NCBI RefSeq assembly: GCF_025641885.1
Contig: NZ_JAOTQN010000004.1
Span: forward strand, 62,001-126,000
Length of the DNA: 64,000 bases
DNA from: Pyrobaculum sp. 3827-6
Lineage (GTDB): Archaea; Thermoproteota; Thermoprotei; Thermoproteales; Thermoproteaceae
Direction of reading: 5' to 3'
This document shows, in pieces, positions 27,093 through 37,172 of the stretch. The position numbers and the translations under genes were made by a program. Numbering within the stretch: the first letter of the stretch is position 1; each line of letters starts with the position of its first letter. The notes under the pieces were generated by a model that searched no databases, was not told the origin of the DNA, and was given only the letters and a program-made list of their open reading frames with translations.

Positions 27093-27485
27093 CTACTTTT
27101 CCTTTAGGTCCCTTTTCTTTATTTTGATATAAATTATCAACGGCACAGATAGCATCACAAACGCTAAGAAGAATATGAGCAATGTAAATGACACAAAGCG
27201 AAGTAGAGCTAAATCATTGAATAGCGCCAACCACGATAATACCATACCAGTAACCCAAACGGCACCAACGGCAAAGTCGGATTCAATAGACCCCCTACAT
27301 CTAAAAAATCCTCCTCTTCTGAAATCTAGTGTGAAATATAAAACTACCGCTGTCACTCCTACCAATAATAGGCCCAATGCTGAGTAAAACGACATATTTG
27401 AGCGATATATATTACCAGAGAGAAGTCCAAGCAAAAATATAGCTAAAAAAAGGATACCCATTACCAGAACATTATGACACCTCAT
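27093..27485 (-). CDS. Four-helix membrane protein, candidate immunity protein
   Basis: 130 residues with four predicted membrane helices (about 6-24, 34-52, 71-89, 95-120) and a basic, charged C-terminus (KIKKRDLKEK). It begins 33 bases after the stop of the large Cys-rich precursor and lies in the same AT-rich stretch, so the two are probably co-transcribed. Small membrane proteins directly behind bacteriocin precursors often confer self-immunity or help export. That role is inferred from position only; no family is recognised. Confidence 0.75.
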   Translation of the reverse strand: MRCHNVLVMGILFLAIFLLGLLSGNIYRSNMSFYSALGLLLVGVTAVVLYFTLDFRRGGFFRCRGSIESDFAVGAVWVTGMVLSWLALFNDLALLRFVSFTLLIFFLAFVMLSVPLIIYIKIKKRDLKEK

Positions 27486-27518
27486 GTCTTAGCACTAAGT
27501 TGCTTCCTTATATAGTTT

Positions 27519-28544
27519 TCATCTTAGACAACAATAATACGCTTGTTGCGCCGCATAAACACATATACCCACCCCCAGTGCACATAGTACACAACCAGCC
27601 AAAGATGTCCCCACGCACAATAAACATGTCCATGCTGTGAATATATTAATACATGCCCCGATGCAAGGTATAAGCTGGGCGCATAAAGGACAGTATCCCA
27701 GCAGTGCTGAGTCCCCGAGGGCACATGCTATTAAGTTTCCTATAGAAGCTACACAACAAATCAGGTCAAAATCAGTTACAATTGCCACTGTAGGTGCTTT
27801 TCCGTTATACTGCGGCATTTCCTTCTCAATGAATTTAGCTAGTTTGTTGAGTTCCTTGTATGCGATATCCCATGCTCTTGGACTGTCATTCTTTACTTGC
27901 TTTAATGCATTTCCTATTATGCGATAACTATCAGCAAGAGTTGTAGCGTTTCTTATTATTATAATCTCGGTAGCTGTTACATTCTTTTTGAAAGGCGTTG
28001 AATCTATTCTTGTATAGAATAGAGAATACTCACCGTTAGGCTTTGTATAGATTATTGTAATAGTTGTAAAGTTGTAGTGACCAGGCTGATCTCTACCCAC
28101 CACCTTATAAACCAGCACATAGAAGGTAAAGTTAACAGTACCATTTGTGACAATCACTTTACCGAAGGCAAGGCTATAATTACCAACACCTTCAACCCAA
28201 GTTTTGTTTACTATTACATTTACATTATAACTGATTTTAAGGTTACTGCTAGTGATATTAACATTACACTTAGCATTAGTTTTATTAATTTCATAATGTG
28301 TGAAGTTATATTTTGTTAATATTTCAGTTAACGAAGTAATATTATAGAAGGGTTTTTGTTTTTCATCTAGAGTTACTTGAATAAGGTGGCCGTTCAGTTT
28401 GAGATCTTGCACGACCCCGCCAGCGAATGTGGTATACTGACCTCCAAATATTATTAACAACAGTAGCATCGCCTTGGCTAGCTTTACAACGGATGTAGGC
28501 TTTGCGGCGGTTTCTATTCTTCTTATCTTTTTTAACGCGTTCAT
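27519..28544 (-). CDS. Secreted precursor with Cys-rich hydrophobic tail, halocin C8-like architecture
   Basis: 341 residues. Residues 1-42 form a secretion signal with a basic n-region containing twin arginines (ALKKIRRIETAAK) and a hydrophobic core, so export by Tat or Sec is possible. Residues 45-250 are a beta-rich extracellular domain with many Asn-x-Ser/Thr sequons. Residues 256-341 are hydrophobic and hold 14 cysteines, with paired CC at both ends (DLICCV, YYCCLR) and C-x2-C motifs. Halocin C8 is likewise a Cys-rich peptide cut from the C-terminus of a larger Tat-exported precursor whose N-terminal part gives immunity. I infer a similar processed peptide. The promoter and signal start lie in a 147-bp inverted repeat shared with the small-peptide gene at 31346. 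Confidence 0.8.
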   Translation of the reverse strand: MNALKKIRRIETAAKPTSVVKLAKAMLLLLIIFGGQYTTFAGGVVQDLKLNGHLIQVTLDEKQKPFYNITSLTEILTKYNFTHYEINKTNAKCNVNITSSNLKISYNVNVIVNKTWVEGVGNYSLAFGKVIVTNGTVNFTFYVLVYKVVGRDQPGHYNFTTITIIYTKPNGEYSLFYTRIDSTPFKKNVTATEIIIIRNATTLADSYRIIGNALKQVKNDSPRAWDIAYKELNKLAKFIEKEMPQYNGKAPTVAIVTDFDLICCVASIGNLIACALGDSALLGYCPLCAQLIPCIGACINIFTAWTCLLCVGTSLAGCVLCALGVGICVYAAQQAYYCCLR

Positions 28545-28645
28545 GAGACCGTGACCATCTGTTTTTTAAAGATTCACCATTTTTTTTGTAATACTTTTCC
28601 GCTAAGTTTATAAAGCCACATTTTTCCGCCTTATATGTTAAAAGG
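28499..28645. repeat. 147-bp inverted repeat, left copy
   Basis: Matches the reverse complement of 31245-31391 without gaps and with only about ten differences. It holds the first 15 codons and promoter of the Cys-rich precursor on the minus strand (TATA-like GTTTTTTAAAG), and in the other direction a second TATA box TTTATAAAG followed by ATGTTAAAAGG, a copy of the start of the 31255 gene. That rightward frame stops after ten codons, so it is a remnant here. The repeat is therefore a whole duplicated divergent promoter. Confidence 0.92.
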
Positions 28646-28658
28646 GGACACGGCGTGT

Positions 28659-28859
28659 GCTCCTTAATAATGACAATGTCTATGTAGTGCTCGGGTAGCT
28701 CTAGGCGGCGGACAGTAGCTCGCCCAGCGCTTCGAACGAGACTGCGGACACTGCCAAGTCCAGATCGCCAGCTTCTGTGCCTGACGTATCTGAGCCGAAG
28801 AGAAAGGCAAATCTAGCATAGCGCCCCCATGGCAATGTCTGCAAAGCCTTTAGAGACAT
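28659..28859 (-). pseudogene. Remnant of an MNT-like nucleotidyltransferase
   Basis: From ATG 28859 the frame reads ALQTLPWGRYARFAFLFGS, then DTSGTEAGDLDLAVS, the GS-x10-DxD motif of minimal nucleotidyltransferases, and stops at a TAG near 28712. A shifted frame then gives LPEHYIDIVIIKE, matching the expected third-aspartate strand. The gene is frameshifted and cut off at the inverted repeat. It lies in the 340-base gap between the precursor gene and the surface-protein gene. Confidence 0.65.
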
Positions 28860-28884: not shown

Positions 28885-30948
28885 CTAGTCGCTACTCTTC
28901 TTTACAAGCTCAGTCTTCTGGCGGCCGCGTCTCTTGGCTATTGCAGCCGCCGCCACAAGCGCCGCCGCCACCGCCGCCAGTGCCGCCAGGCCTGGGCCGG
29001 GGTTCGCCGCCTCGCCTAGGGGCTGGGCGCGGCTCTTCACGGCTAGGGTGACGGTTGCGTTTTCTGTGTAGATCTGCCCCGCCTCGTCCATGTATCTGAG
29101 CTGTATCACCGCCGTGTAGTTGCCCGGGGCTGTGGCGTTGAGGAGGAGCGAGGTGGCTGTGGACTGCTGTGGCTGTATCTGGCCGAGGTATGCGTCTCCA
29201 ATTATCGCCGCGGCGCCGGGCGCGGATAGTCTAACCTCGACGTTGTAGGCCGTGGCGAAGCCTGAGTTGTGGAGCGTGACTGCGAGGGAGACTGGGCGGC
29301 CCGCCTCTGGGTTTCTCGGGGCCACGTCGATGGAGGCGATCTTCACGCGTGGTTCTCTTACTACGGCGAGCTCTACGATCTTCCTCTCCTGTCCGCCGAA
29401 GCCCTCCGGCGTGGTGTAGTAGACGTCGCAGGTGATCTCCACGGGGCCCGCCGCCGTTAGGGGGACGTCTACGGTGTAGTTCACCACAGCGTAGCCGCCC
29501 GGGGTGAGCTCCACCTTCTGGAGGAGCGGTGGGGAGTATCTAGAGGTAACCACCACGTAGGCGTCTATCCTGCTGGCTCTGCCTATGTAGTAGATGCGTA
29601 TAGGCACCACGTCGCCCCTCCCCGCGGCCACCGCAGATTTGGAGGGGAGTATGAGGAAAGCCTCGCCGCCCACCACCGGGAGCTCCACCACGTGCTCCTC
29701 GCTCCACCTCTGCGACGACACGACTACCCTCAGCCTCACCGACTGCCCCTGTGGGATGAGCCTAGCCACCGCCCTGGCCTCGTTTACCCCGCTGACGGTG
29801 AGGGGGGTGGGGCCCGCGGAGGCGGCACCCTCGGGGTATACAGAGGCGTTGAAGGCGCCGGGGGCGGTGATGGACAGCGTTACGTTGTTAACCACGCCCC
29901 TCACCAAGACGCCGGGCGCCGCGGAGACTCTCGCCATCGCCGCCGCTGGGGTCGTGGCGAGGGTCAGCACCGCCTCCTCACGCCTCAGCACCCCGCCCAT
30001 TGTGTAGTACACCTCGGCCCTCAGCTGTACCGTCTGGGAGGTGGGCACCACGTCTACCACCCCCCGCCCGATCCCGCCCCTCACCTCTATGACGTATATG
30101 CTTCTGCTGGCGGAACCCCCCGCGACGGTTAGATAGGCCACGCCGTCCGCGCCGCTGGGCACCGCCACGGTGACGTTTACGTTGTTAAGTGTCCCCGGCG
30201 TGAGGGCCGGCCGATCGGCTTGGAGCTGGACGGCGGGCGGGGGAGCTACAGGTATTTGGAGGTGGATTTCTCTTGTGTAGAACCTCCCCGTGGCGTCGGC
30301 GGCGTTGACCGCCACCTTTACCGTGGGCGTGTAGCTCTCGGCGACGAGTCTCAGAGGAATTATGTTGACTCCCGGCCTCAGCGCCACTGCCGATCCAGGC
30401 CACAGAACCCTCGCCCCGGAGCCCTCTATCCTGGCCTCCCCTCCGAGAGCGCCCCTCAGGACAACGGTGAGGTTCACGGCGGCGGGCAGTCCGTAGACGG
30501 CGGCGCCGCTGAGCCGGGCCTCTGCCTCGGGAACAGCGGGCACGTAGATGTCGACGTGCTCTATATGCTCCCCGCCCTGGCCCAGCCCAGGCTCTGTAAA
30601 CCTCCACCGCCAGACAAGAGCGGCGGGGCATGTGGCGTTTAGCCGCTCTACTGCCACTACGAGACGCGCCGTGGCGGCGCCGGGCCCCGCCTCCAGCGCC
30701 CGGTGCGCCTCCAGAGGCTTCACCCAGCCACACCTGGGGATCAGCACAACGGAAAGATCTACAAGCTTTGTCTTTGTGTAGAACCCCACCTCAACGATCC
30801 CGGGGGCTCCGGGTTGCCGCGGGGGATCGGCCCATTTGTAGTAGAAATAGACGACTGCGGTATCCGAGGCGCCTGCTACCGCCTGACCCGCGGCGAGGTG
30901 CACGAGCAGTAGTAGTAGGCTAATGTAGATACCTACCCGCGAGTTCAT
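28885..30948 (-). CDS. Surface-anchored protein with repeated beta-sandwich domains
   Basis: 687 residues. A signal peptide (residues 1-25, ending AVAGAS) and a C-terminal membrane helix near 652-672 followed by KRRGRQKTE indicate an extracytoplasmic protein anchored at its C-terminus. Between them are several repeated domains with LTPGTLNNVNVTV, VLVRGVVNNVTLSI and ARNPEAGRPVSL-type starts, resembling CARDB/NEW3-like beta sandwiches. Such proteins are typical archaeal envelope components. The start lies within the end of the upstream four-helix gene (29-base overlap), so both are one operon driven from the right inverted repeat. Confidence 0.85.
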   Translation of the reverse strand: MNSRVGIYISLLLLLVHLAAGQAVAGASDTAVVYFYYKWADPPRQPGAPGIVEVGFYTKTKLVDLSVVLIPRCGWVKPLEAHRALEAGPGAATARLVVAVERLNATCPAALVWRWRFTEPGLGQGGEHIEHVDIYVPAVPEAEARLSGAAVYGLPAAVNLTVVLRGALGGEARIEGSGARVLWPGSAVALRPGVNIIPLRLVAESYTPTVKVAVNAADATGRFYTREIHLQIPVAPPPAVQLQADRPALTPGTLNNVNVTVAVPSGADGVAYLTVAGGSASRSIYVIEVRGGIGRGVVDVVPTSQTVQLRAEVYYTMGGVLRREEAVLTLATTPAAAMARVSAAPGVLVRGVVNNVTLSITAPGAFNASVYPEGAASAGPTPLTVSGVNEARAVARLIPQGQSVRLRVVVSSQRWSEEHVVELPVVGGEAFLILPSKSAVAAGRGDVVPIRIYYIGRASRIDAYVVVTSRYSPPLLQKVELTPGGYAVVNYTVDVPLTAAGPVEITCDVYYTTPEGFGGQERKIVELAVVREPRVKIASIDVAPRNPEAGRPVSLAVTLHNSGFATAYNVEVRLSAPGAAAIIGDAYLGQIQPQQSTATSLLLNATAPGNYTAVIQLRYMDEAGQIYTENATVTLAVKSRAQPLGEAANPGPGLAALAAVAAALVAAAAIAKRRGRQKTELVKKSSD

Positions 30949-31255
30949 ACACGCCGTAGAACACCGCCCAGTAAAGAGCGTTTACAGCCGTAAATAGAAT
31001 TAGGCCAGTGGTTAGATTCATCCCAACCACCTCGACTTTTCCAATGCCTAAGAGGAGCGGCAGTATAAACAGTGATGTGGTTACGGCGAATCCCACTGCG
31101 GCCACGTACAAGCCTCCCTTCCTCCCCAGCGCTAGGTCTAGTATAACCCCCAGCAGTATATAGAGGAACCCACCGCCTACCGACTCTAGTTTAAATCCAC
31201 TCATTACAATGTTTACTGCAAGTACCGCAAGCCCCGCAATTAAGCCTTTTAACAC
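30920..31255 (-). CDS. Four-helix membrane protein, promoter-proximal gene of the surface-protein operon
   Basis: 111 residues with four predicted membrane helices (about 3-20, 27-43, 49-70, 80-101). It starts with GTG 31255, 26 bases after the palindromic TATA box TTTATAAA in the right inverted repeat. It is divergent from the small Cys-peptide gene and overlaps the surface-protein start. Role unknown; a partner or anchor for the surface protein, or an immunity protein for the peptide, are both possible. Confidence 0.75.
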   Translation of the reverse strand: MLKGLIAGLAVLAVNIVMSGFKLESVGGGFLYILLGVILDLALGRKGGLYVAAVGFAVTTSLFILPLLLGIGKVEVVGMNLTTGLILFTAVNALYWAVFYGVYELAGRYLH

Positions 31256-31391
31256 ATGAGACGGAAAAATGCGGCTTTATAAACTTAGCGGAAAAGTATT
31301 ACAAAAAAAATGGTGAATCTTTAAAAAACAGATGGTCATGATTTCATGAACGCGTTAAAAAAGATAAGAAGACTAGAAACCGCCGCAAAGC
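31245..31391. repeat. 147-bp inverted repeat, right copy
   Basis: Inverted partner of 28499-28645. It contains the divergent promoters of the 111-residue membrane protein (leftward; TTTATAAA, GTG 31255) and of the small Cys-rich peptide (rightward; TTTAAAAAA, ATG 31346), plus the first 15 codons of the peptide leader. The 2.6 kb between the copies could be inverted by recombination, exchanging the promoters. Confidence 0.92.
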
Positions 31392-31534
31392 TTGCACCCG
31401 CACTAATGCTAGGAGCGACGCTACTGGCCGGCCAAGCGCTGGCTGGAAATGTACAGCCAAATACCATATGCATTGAGGGAGTTGGCTGTATAGGGATTTG
31501 CTTCCCAATAGGTCCAGTTCTTGTCTGCCTCTAA
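31346..31534 (+). CDS. Small secreted Cys-rich peptide precursor
   Basis: 62 residues. The first 15 (NALKKIRRLETAAK after Met) are the same as in the 341-residue precursor except for one residue. A hydrophobic core and ALAG at 31-34 suggest cleavage after residue 33 or 34, leaving a 28-residue peptide with four cysteines (42, 48, 52, 61) in a hydrophobic, Gly/Pro-rich frame (CIEGVGCIGICFPIG). That is the profile of a peptide antibiotic or signal. ATG 31346 is about 23 bases after its TATA-like box. An FtsX-type permease gene follows 93 bases later on the same strand. Confidence 0.75.
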   Translation: MNALKKIRRLETAAKLAPALMLGATLLAGQALAGNVQPNTICIEGVGCIGICFPIGPVLVCL

Positions 31535-34950: not shown

Positions 34951-35194
34951 GGTACTCCCCCAGCAGGTCGAAAATGTCGTGCTCCTTCACAGCCTCCTTC
35001 CTAAGCTCGGAGAAGGTGGGGTATATGTATGGCAGGAGGCGCAGGGAGTAGTAAGTCGTCAAGAAGGGTATACCCACAAAGTCGCCGAAGACGAGGATCT
35101 CCAGCAGTAGCCTAACCTCCCGGTGGAGCTTCGCCGTCTCTCTGTAGAGGTCGAGGAAGAGGAGGCCGAAGAGGAAGTCCCGGAGAGCTCTCAT
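34940..35194 (-). CDS. Small ArsA-associated protein, paralogue of the gene at 37169
   Basis: 84 residues. The central segment GDFVGIPFLTTYYSLRLLPY, followed by IYPTF, aligns with GDMLGIPILPPYYSMRLLPY, followed by VFPNI, in the 82-residue protein at the other end of the operon. Both are mostly helical with a hydrophobic middle and may bind membranes. The stop overlaps downstream and the start overlaps ArsA-2 by four bases. It may act as an adaptor or client of the ATPase beside it; that is inference from pairing. Confidence 0.75.
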   Translation of the reverse strand: MRALRDFLFGLLFLDLYRETAKLHREVRLLLEILVFGDFVGIPFLTTYYSLRLLPYIYPTFSELRKEAVKEHDIFDLLGEYHAH

Positions 35195-36171
35195 GAAACA
35201 AGCTCCTTCATAAACTGCCTCAGCCTCTCCAGCCCCACTATGTCTTCGGGGAAGAGCCTCACGGAGGCCAGGATGTGGGGCGCGAAGGAGCGCCTAACCA
35301 GCTCGAGATTTTTCTGCTGCTCGTCGTATTTACTCTTTAGGAAGCCGGTGGCGTCTCTCTCAGCCTCCTCCCTGGGGATTACCATGTTCACCACCACGCC
35401 GCCGAACGGTATTTCGTAGGCCTTCACCATTTCTATAAACCTCTGCACCACGGAGATAGACAGCACGGTGGGTATCGTCACGAAGACAAAACGCGTGGCG
35501 GCCGGGTCGGTTAACACGGCGCGGACCTTCATATACCTCTGGTAGAGATCCTGCAACTCGTGGAGGACGGGGTCCTTCTCAATCTCCTCCTTCACCTTCT
35601 CCTTACGGAATGACAGCTGCTCCTTTAGGGACAGGGTCTCCATCCTCATCTTAATAGTCCTCTGAAGCCACGCGCCGTAGAGCTTAGACAAGCCGATGAG
35701 CCTCACCGCGTTGGCCACCGCCGCCATGTCGAAAACAACTCTGTCGAAGTTGGCGCCCTCCTTCAGGACAACGTCCATCATCTTGTCGAAGGCGGCGGCC
35801 TCGTGAAACGCCGGGTTAGTAGTGGCTATGTCCACCAGAGGCTTTATGTCTACAGAAAGCTCAGCCATCTTAAGCATTTCCCTAAGCAACGTGGTGATCC
35901 TCGTCTTGTACCTCTCCACAATGTCGTCGTACTGCACCTCCACGGCCCAGAGGTTGCGCGCCCCCGCCACCTCCTTAACCACGCCCCCGGACAAGTCCTG
36001 TCCAAACACGGAAGACAGGGAGTGCACAGGGTTGAAGCTGGCGAGCAATGTCTTTTCCCCAGCCGCCTCGGCTAGGTACAGCGCCGTGGCGGCCGCGACG
36101 ACGGTCTTACCCACGCCGCCCTTGCCGCCGAAGAAGAGGAACTTAATCCTCTGCCCCAGTAGCTGCTTCAT
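35191..36171 (-). CDS. ArsA/Get3-like ATPase, second copy, degenerate switch II
   Basis: 326 residues. The deviant Walker A is GGKGGVGKT at 15-23 and switch I is NPVHSLSSVFG near 46. Where ArsA/Get3 have DTAPTGH, this protein has FDMAAVANAVRL, losing the Pro and His, so nucleotide-driven movement may be changed. ArsA-family ATPases drive anion export or tail-anchored protein insertion; no ArsB pump is nearby, making a Get3-like or unknown role more likely. It overlaps its neighbours on both sides by four bases. Confidence 0.85.
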   Translation of the reverse strand: MKQLLGQRIKFLFFGGKGGVGKTVVAAATALYLAEAAGEKTLLASFNPVHSLSSVFGQDLSGGVVKEVAGARNLWAVEVQYDDIVERYKTRITTLLREMLKMAELSVDIKPLVDIATTNPAFHEAAAFDKMMDVVLKEGANFDRVVFDMAAVANAVRLIGLSKLYGAWLQRTIKMRMETLSLKEQLSFRKEKVKEEIEKDPVLHELQDLYQRYMKVRAVLTDPAATRFVFVTIPTVLSISVVQRFIEMVKAYEIPFGGVVVNMVIPREEAERDATGFLKSKYDEQQKNLELVRRSFAPHILASVRLFPEDIVGLERLRQFMKELVS

Positions 36172-37172
36172 AGGTACTCCTCCACCCTCCTCGAAGGCTT
36201 CCAGAGCTCCTCAGCAACGCCCCTAAGCACCTCCAGCCCCTTGGGTTCCCTGTTCAACATGGGTATCACAGCTACGAGGTATTTGCCAAACTTATCCACA
36301 ATCTCCGCTACGTACTTCCTCTGCTCCTCCACCCTCCTCTTGATGTAGGCAGGCGCATCCGGCCGCTTGGCGAGGTCGGGGGGGTACACCTGGTTGAGGA
36401 CAATCCCGGTGAGCTTAAGCCCCAGGGAGTCGAACATCTCCAGTGCCTTCTCCGTGTCGACAATAGTCATCCGCTCAGGTGTCATGACCATCATAAACGC
36501 CGTGGTCTTGGTATTCAAAATAATGTCTCTAAACTTGACAATGCGCCCCCTGATGTACTCCAGCTCGTTTAATATCTCGTCTTCGTAGGTCAGCTTCTGC
36601 CTTTTTAGAGACGCCGCCACCCTCCCGTACTCGTAGGCCTGCTTCCTCAACTCGGTAATCTTCTCAACCCACTGGCTCAACACGTCTGCAATTGCGATCA
36701 TCCTGATGCCGTGCCCAAAGGGGGGCATGTCGAAGACGTAGTAGTCGTACTTGCCCTCCGACACCACATCCACCATGGCGTCGTACACCGCGCTTTCGTA
36801 CATCGCAGGCTCAGCCGCCGCGCTGTCGATGTACTCCTCAATATCCTTAGGCAGAGCGTCGAGGCGGTACATGTCGATAATCTTCTTCTTTATCGAGGCG
36901 ACGTACTCGTTGATCTTCTTATCAGCGTCTATCTCCATCACCCAGAGGTTATCCGCCAGCTTCACCTCCCCCTTCCCAAAGACGTTCTGCTCAAACACGT
37001 CGCTAAGCGACGCCTGGGGATCGGTGCTGAAGACCAGCGTCTTTTTGCCCATAGACGAGAGTTTTAGAGACGTGGCGGCGCTCAGCGTGGTCTTCCCAAG
37101 ACCCCCCTTACCCGCGTAGATAAACACCCTCAGGCTGGGGTTCTCCTGCAACAAGCCAGAAAGCCCCTTCAT
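36168..37172 (-). CDS. ArsA/Get3-like ATPase, first copy
   Basis: 334 residues. Deviant Walker A AGKGGLGKTT at 20-29, switch I STDPQASLSDVF near 49, switch II FDMPPFGHGIRM near 150 with the conserved Pro, Gly and His. The long helical middle (residues 165-220) could form the hydrophobic client-binding region of Get3. No CxxC dimer motif is visible. Overlaps with the genes on both sides (four bases each) define an operon with a second ArsA copy and two small paralogues. Confidence 0.87.
   Translation of the reverse strand: MKGLSGLLQENPSLRVFIYAGKGGLGKTTLSAATSLKLSSMGKKTLVFSTDPQASLSDVFEQNVFGKGEVKLADNLWVMEIDADKKINEYVASIKKKIIDMYRLDALPKDIEEYIDSAAAEPAMYESAVYDAMVDVVSEGKYDYYVFDMPPFGHGIRMIAIADVLSQWVEKITELRKQAYEYGRVAASLKRQKLTYEDEILNELEYIRGRIVKFRDIILNTKTTAFMMVMTPERMTIVDTEKALEMFDSLGLKLTGIVLNQVYPPDLAKRPDAPAYIKRRVEEQRKYVAEIVDKFGKYLVAVIPMLNREPKGLEVLRGVAEELWKPSRRVEEYL

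Follow-up and report, generated by a model that had tools for sequence, protein, structure and literature searches.

Two genes of Pyrobaculum sp. 3827-6 (genome G000) begin almost identically and then encode different products, a 62-residue protein with four cysteines and a 341-residue precursor. What does the small protein do, and does the common beginning mark a common route of export or processing, as a sequence-only reading of the locus had proposed by analogy with bacteriocin families? We know of few peptide antagonists from crenarchaea and of none from Pyrobaculum. We analysed a stretch of 64,000 nucleotides (the window; C4:62001-126000) of the 2.30 Mb genome, which is assembled in 13 contigs; unless stated otherwise, positions are those of the window, with the strand given as a sign.

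A predicted secreted peptide with four cysteines

The gene of the small protein (P0001, 31346-31534, +) translates as MNALKKIRRLETAAKLAPALMLGATLLAGQALA|GNVQPNTICIEGVGCIGICFPIGPVLVCL, where the bar marks the Sec cut site predicted by reading the sequence. Fourteen of its first 15 residues recur in the 341-residue product (27519-28544, -), the exception being L10/I10, as do 44 of the 45 bases, which bears out the previous description of the open reading frame and its leader. These residues form a charged n-region (31346-31390, +), the first part of a predicted Sec signal sequence of residues 1-33 (31346-31444, +) that ends in ALA at an AxA-like site, QALA|GNV. Cleavage there would leave a mature peptide of 29 residues (31445-31531, +), one more than the 28 formerly counted; the four cysteines attributed to it are indeed present, at positions 42, 48, 52 and 61, after the hydrophobic core. 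In class III (PibD) signals a [KR][GA] cut site lies ahead of the hydrophobic core, and inspection of P0001 revealed no such pilin-like site. Among 1057 start-to-stop readings of 45-110 residues in the window, P0001 alone combined a Sec-like N-terminus with four or more cysteines in the 60 residues after it, a count that is descriptive only, as these criteria were chosen after P0001 was known. A predicted model of the protein was of low confidence (pLDDT 57.5) and uninformative.

A TATA-like box read from the upstream sequence (31320-31328, +) lies about 26 bases 5' of the ATG, and five loci have an AT-rich box at this spacing, which suggests a leaderless mRNA. On one side the peptide gene is flanked by a divergent gene for a small membrane protein of 111 residues (30920-31255, -), followed by the gene of a 687-residue protein with a CARDB domain; on the other side lies a gene for an FtsX-like permease of 334 residues. 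Counterparts of the 111-residue protein, of about 110-120 residues, adjoin the peptide in four other genomes, recognised by similarity in G003 and G007 and by position only in G001 and G006.

Relatives of the peptide and their divergence

The peptide is present, intact or broken, in 5/11 genomes of the genus including G000, and was found in 0/8 genomes from the family's two other genera (5/19 family genomes in total). The G003 and G001 copies are intact, with 90% and 48% identity, respectively. In G007 (Pyrobaculum sp. WP30, CP012158) an in-frame TAA lies inside the hydrophobic core, and in G006 (P. oguniense TE7, CP003316) the conserved frame is not joined to an ATG, with the AT box at its usual distance; a TTG start further in could give a shorter product there. 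The three more distant of these relatives, at 40-48% identity, keep the cysteine pattern, the AxA-like site and the final CL.

We aligned five sequences, including the two broken genes of G006 and G007 read through. All five display Sec-type anatomy, with a positive n-region, a hydrophobic core and an AxA-type site, the signal ending in ALA, ALA, ANA, AHA or VSA. Invariant positions are K6, E11, K15, A17, P18, A33, P38, C42, C48, C52, C61 and L62, and the cysteines are spaced C-x5 or x4-C-x3-C-x8-C. Because all four cysteines and the C-terminal Cys-Leu are kept in 5/5 sequences, P0001 is more than a chance reading frame and is probably a true gene. The check that the sequence-only reading had called for, conservation of leader pattern and cysteines in other genomes of the genus, thus came out in its favour in four genomes besides G000.

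Further candidates were set aside: a match in G008 (E 0.062) that contains a stop and has no cysteine frame, which would have made the genus count 6/11; a match in G005 (E 0.014) that covers residues 9-38 only, inside a 280-residue frame, which would have made the family count 6/19; and a possible relic 5' of the permease gene in G002 (reading ...ISIGPVQMCIGCIELP), too short for counting. The peptide gave no match to a family in Pfam, NCBIfam, PHROGs or PADLOC, viral contigs held no relative, and plasmids and phages gave no match at E<=0.1. The best PDB sequence match, to talin (E 0.12), is attributable to chance and none was credible. In open-access texts on Pyrobaculum or archaeal peptides, nothing was recognised as this peptide.

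Comparison of the G000 and G003 genes revealed a sharp division between the leader (residues 1-33), with 0/99 base changes, and the mature part, with 9/87 (Fisher p 0.0009). Eight of the nine changes are nonsynonymous, and they spare every cysteine, the IGP motif and the final CL: the mature loops vary freely while the cysteine frame stays fixed. Compared with eight neighbouring genes, the mature part has about 6-7 times as much nonsynonymous change (p 5e-5). The 8 changes observed match the 7.2 expected under neutrality, and relaxed constraint on a dispensable peptide therefore fits as well as diversifying selection, which is possible and which we do not advance as a firm claim.

Origin of the shared leader

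The match between the two leaders extends 5' through the whole divergent promoter. The segment at 31245-31426 (+), comprising the divergent promoter and leader, aligns with 28645-28461 (-), before and into the 341-residue gene, at 89% identity over 185 columns with 3 gap positions. Judging from this alignment, the shared leader lies at one end of a duplicated DNA stretch of 183 bases that also bears the promoter. In G006 the relative of the 341-residue protein starts MRGQQIERKKLAKALFLLVLVVAGQYVTIAG, without the shared leader, and in the window product the leader is followed by the corresponding KLAKAMLLLLIIFGGQYTTFAG; the leader therefore appears to have been added before an existing signal sequence. 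A search of the 11 Pyrobaculum genomes with the leader, as the sequence-only reading had advised, returned no third protein with this leader, the matches being the two window genes and the peptide's own orthologues.

The duplication, the G006 N-terminus and the leader search therefore point to capture of a promoter and 5' end, and for these reasons we rejected the shared leader as independent evidence for leader-guided export. The general Sec route probably serves both products, which would need no dedicated leader processing. The earlier interpretation survives in its first part, a small secreted cysteine peptide in surroundings like those of bacteriocins, and is not supported as it stood in its second, the leader as a sign of common export or processing. 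In the alignment of promoters, several bases 5' of the ATG of the G003 peptide gene agree with the copy before the 341-residue gene and not with that of the window peptide; the duplication may therefore predate the split of G000 and G003.

A type VII-like ABC permease next to the peptide gene

The gene directly 3' of the peptide encodes an FtsX/MacB-type ABC permease of 334 residues (P0005, 31628-32632, +), recognised by Pfam and predicted fold. The Pfam FtsX match (E 1.1e-4, 22.7 bits) falls under the curated cut-off of 25.5. An AlphaFold2 model built from 3 sequences has a pLDDT of 61.7, with the C-terminal 70 residues below 50, and displays a helix-domain-helix layout whose last transmembrane helices are of low confidence. 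With this model, Foldseek retrieved LolCDE, YbbAP, HrtBA and MacB (E 2.7e-8 to 9.1e-8), and VIA-align retrieved Spr0694-0695, LolCDE and MacB (Z 11-12), the best match being 5xu1 (Spr0694-0695; Z 12.0, rmsd 7.5 over 257 residues). Type VII ABC permeases were recognised by a first transmembrane helix, an extracytoplasmic core domain, three C-terminal transmembrane helices and an FtsX domain. According to the predicted model P0005 has this make-up and would belong to this class (MacB/LolCE/FtsX), its Pfam FtsX match being below the cut-off.

Relatives of P0005 (E<=1e-15) occur in 7/45 genomes of the order, all of this genus, and one of them, in G009, is a fragment with no peptide region. When genome contigs were scanned with an alignment of the permease, and not of the peptide, three loci were returned, all Pyrobaculum. 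In 5/6 genomes with a full-length permease, an intact or broken peptide gene immediately precedes the permease gene; the sixth is G002, with its doubtful relic. Two settings were observed. In G000, G003 and G007 the pair lies beside the gene of one CARDB protein (CARDB-A); in G001 and G006 it lies between the gene of another (CARDB-B) and a radical SAM gene, together with a second FtsX gene. G000 keeps CARDB-B, the second FtsX gene and the radical SAM gene at C1:413-419 kb, without the peptide. In both G006 and G007 the permease frame is open beside a broken peptide gene. A permease that outlasts the peptide would suit a pump that serves as immunity, and would also suit one with another job.

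This association can be explained without a released peptide, if the 62-residue protein stays uncleaved and acts on the FtsX permease as an accessory subunit or regulator, with a single helix and a short extracellular cysteine-rich tail. We regard this as unlikely, although the strict adjacency of the two genes would be expected of it, the leader is unchanged between G000 and G003, and the conserved charged n-region (K6, E11, K15, A17, P18) exceeds the needs of a throw-away signal; VraH, a small membrane protein of VraDE, is a precedent (PMC5985334). The AxA-like site in 5/5 aligned peptides, a tail that differs much more than the leader when G000 and G003 are compared, and the breakage of the peptide gene in two genomes that retain the permease all argue against it.

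Less likely still is a signal or pheromone that does not kill and that uses the FtsX/CARDB system for its sensing or export. Its anatomy would be alike, a small secreted peptide with a variable mature part and a dedicated ABC transporter, but no receptor or regulator gene was recognised within the conserved cluster. The four invariant cysteines could also be ligands of an extracytoplasmic metal or redox binder that works for an ABC exporter of metal or haem, such as HrtBA, which the fold searches with the permease retrieved; the loops are, however, hydrophobic and variable, with no conserved CxxC pair, His or Asp, and we consider this improbable. Finally, P0001 could be a chance frame whose similarity is a by-product of the duplicated promoter, to which part of the match with the 341-residue gene is indeed due, but we rejected this as highly improbable, given that cysteines, frame and C-terminus are kept in diverged genomes outside the duplication.

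Partners of the permease

The 687-residue protein (28885-30948, -; Pfam CARDB E 1.8e-6) is predicted to be secreted or anchored, has relatives beside the peptide in G003, G007, G001 and G006, and is a probable extracellular partner of the permease. No gene for a LolD/MacB-class ATPase lies beside P0005 in the window. In the G006 cluster a LolD-like ATPase gene overlaps the CARDB-B gene (best NCBIfam match LolD, below cut-off), and single close orthologues, 82-88% identical (85% for the G000 copy), lie elsewhere in the five other genomes searched; the ATPase therefore probably acts in trans. The LolD-like gene, at L013 9864-10583, L060 4763-5428 and L061 4371-5036, belongs to the CARDB/FtsX cluster in one genome and lies apart from that cluster in the others, an arrangement that would suit a transporter ATPase moved away from its permease.

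The window cluster contains no modification enzyme dedicated to the peptide, and no dedicated immunity gene was identified. The radical SAM gene directly 3' of the permease in G001 and G006 was dropped as a candidate maturase, its family being present in 17/19 family-level genomes at E<=1e-60; its best NCBIfam match is AmmeMemoRadiSam (218.2 bits, against a cut-off of 220). A second pair, CARDB-B with FtsX, is conserved in the four genomes examined (L062 2175-5577, L012 2523-5930, L013 10580-13974, L063 1119-4529), with a MacB_PCD domain in the two loci scanned, and may be a general archaeal MacB-like system.

A proposed model for the peptide and the adjacent transporter

We put at about even chances that the peptide is a Sec-exported, probably disulfide-bonded, archaeocin-like molecule, which a MacB-type ABC transporter together with a CARDB surface protein either extrudes or wards off. 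The predicted secretion of the peptide and its linkage to the transporter gene are both well supported; killing, disulfides and the direction of transport are what we infer from them. The divergent promoter, common to the small membrane protein, would give a leaderless mRNA, as the TATA-like boxes suggest. The precursor would cross the membrane by Sec and be cut after ALA, releasing a hydrophobic peptide of about 29 residues whose four cysteines would form two disulfides. The FtsX/MacB-type permease, energised by the LolD-like ATPase encoded elsewhere in the genome and probably together with the CARDB surface protein, would act on the peptide at the outer face of the membrane, so that it is either released outside or, as a means of immunity, cleared from the membrane of the producer itself. 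Such a peptide would most likely serve to antagonise related archaea. Copying of the 183-base promoter-plus-leader segment before the 341-residue gene would account for the common leader, and the two genes are therefore probably co-regulated.

The nearest working model is the enterotoxin STII, which is Sec-exported, has two disulfides and is handled by MacAB-TolC, MacB meeting it from outside the membrane (PMC5985334); the same source describes MacB relatives that act on lantibiotics. The analogy lies in a small four-cysteine peptide with a Sec-type signal, linked to a permease of predicted MacB fold, and claims no sequence similarity. Unlike that system, the present one would operate in an archaeon, which lacks an outer membrane and TolC; here the permease and the ATPase are encoded separately, and the pump gene adjoins the peptide. 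The predicted fold of P0005 is also that of the peptide-resistance transporters BceAB, YknXYZ and Spr0693-0695, but here the candidate adaptor is a CARDB and not a MacA-like protein, and no two-component system was seen in the cluster.

As a small, hydrophobic archaeal peptide predicted to be secreted, the product resembles microhalocins and sulfolobicins. Halocin C8 is exported by Tat, and its larger precursor yields both a mature halocin of 76 residues and the immunity peptide HalI (PMC11509114); in contrast, the present peptide has a Sec-type signal, and neither it nor the 341-residue product matched an NCBIfam family. With RiPP bacteriocins the locus shares one leader before two different cargos, but here the likeness stems from the 183-base duplication, promoter included, and there is no locus-specific modification enzyme.

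More tentatively, these peptides could represent a new archaeocin family of hyperthermophiles: Sec-exported, two-disulfide 29-mers or thereabouts, in which the cysteine frame is fixed and the loops change fast, served by an archaeal MacB-type transporter in which CARDB replaces MacA, and with a promoter-plus-leader cassette that can be copied before other toxin genes. If so, one regulatory and export cassette would arm different cargos. A 29-residue four-cysteine peptide stable in a hyperthermophile would, if real, be a useful scaffold, and the conserved peptide-permease pair offers an archaeal test case for MacB-type pumps acting on peptides outside the cell.

The 341-residue neighbour and other features of the window

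The 341-residue precursor, with its captured promoter and leader, has a cysteine-rich tail; it matched 0 NCBIfam families at E<=1, and the presence of a halocin C8 model in NCBIfam was not confirmed. We suspect a precursor layout like that of halocin C8 (PMC11509114). Beside it lies the gene of a 130-residue membrane protein (27093-27485, -), a weak relative of which (E 0.0012, one stop) adjoins the homologue of the 341-residue gene in G006. The two genes are paired at different places, at 27093-28544 in the window and at G006:C1:1425273-1427037, and both look broken in G006. The pair looks like a toxin precursor and the protein that confers immunity to it, and the 130-residue protein is a possible immunity protein for the 341-residue precursor. 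G003 lacks about 1 kb matching 27767-28763 of the window (junction L010 10685/10686), corresponding to the 5' part of the 341-residue gene and its promoter, and retains only a tail relic of this gene. Further along the window, at 35191-37172, are two adjoining genes for ArsA/MinD-like ATPases, named from their P-loop sequences, the second of which is split in two frames in G003 (L010 2284-3289).
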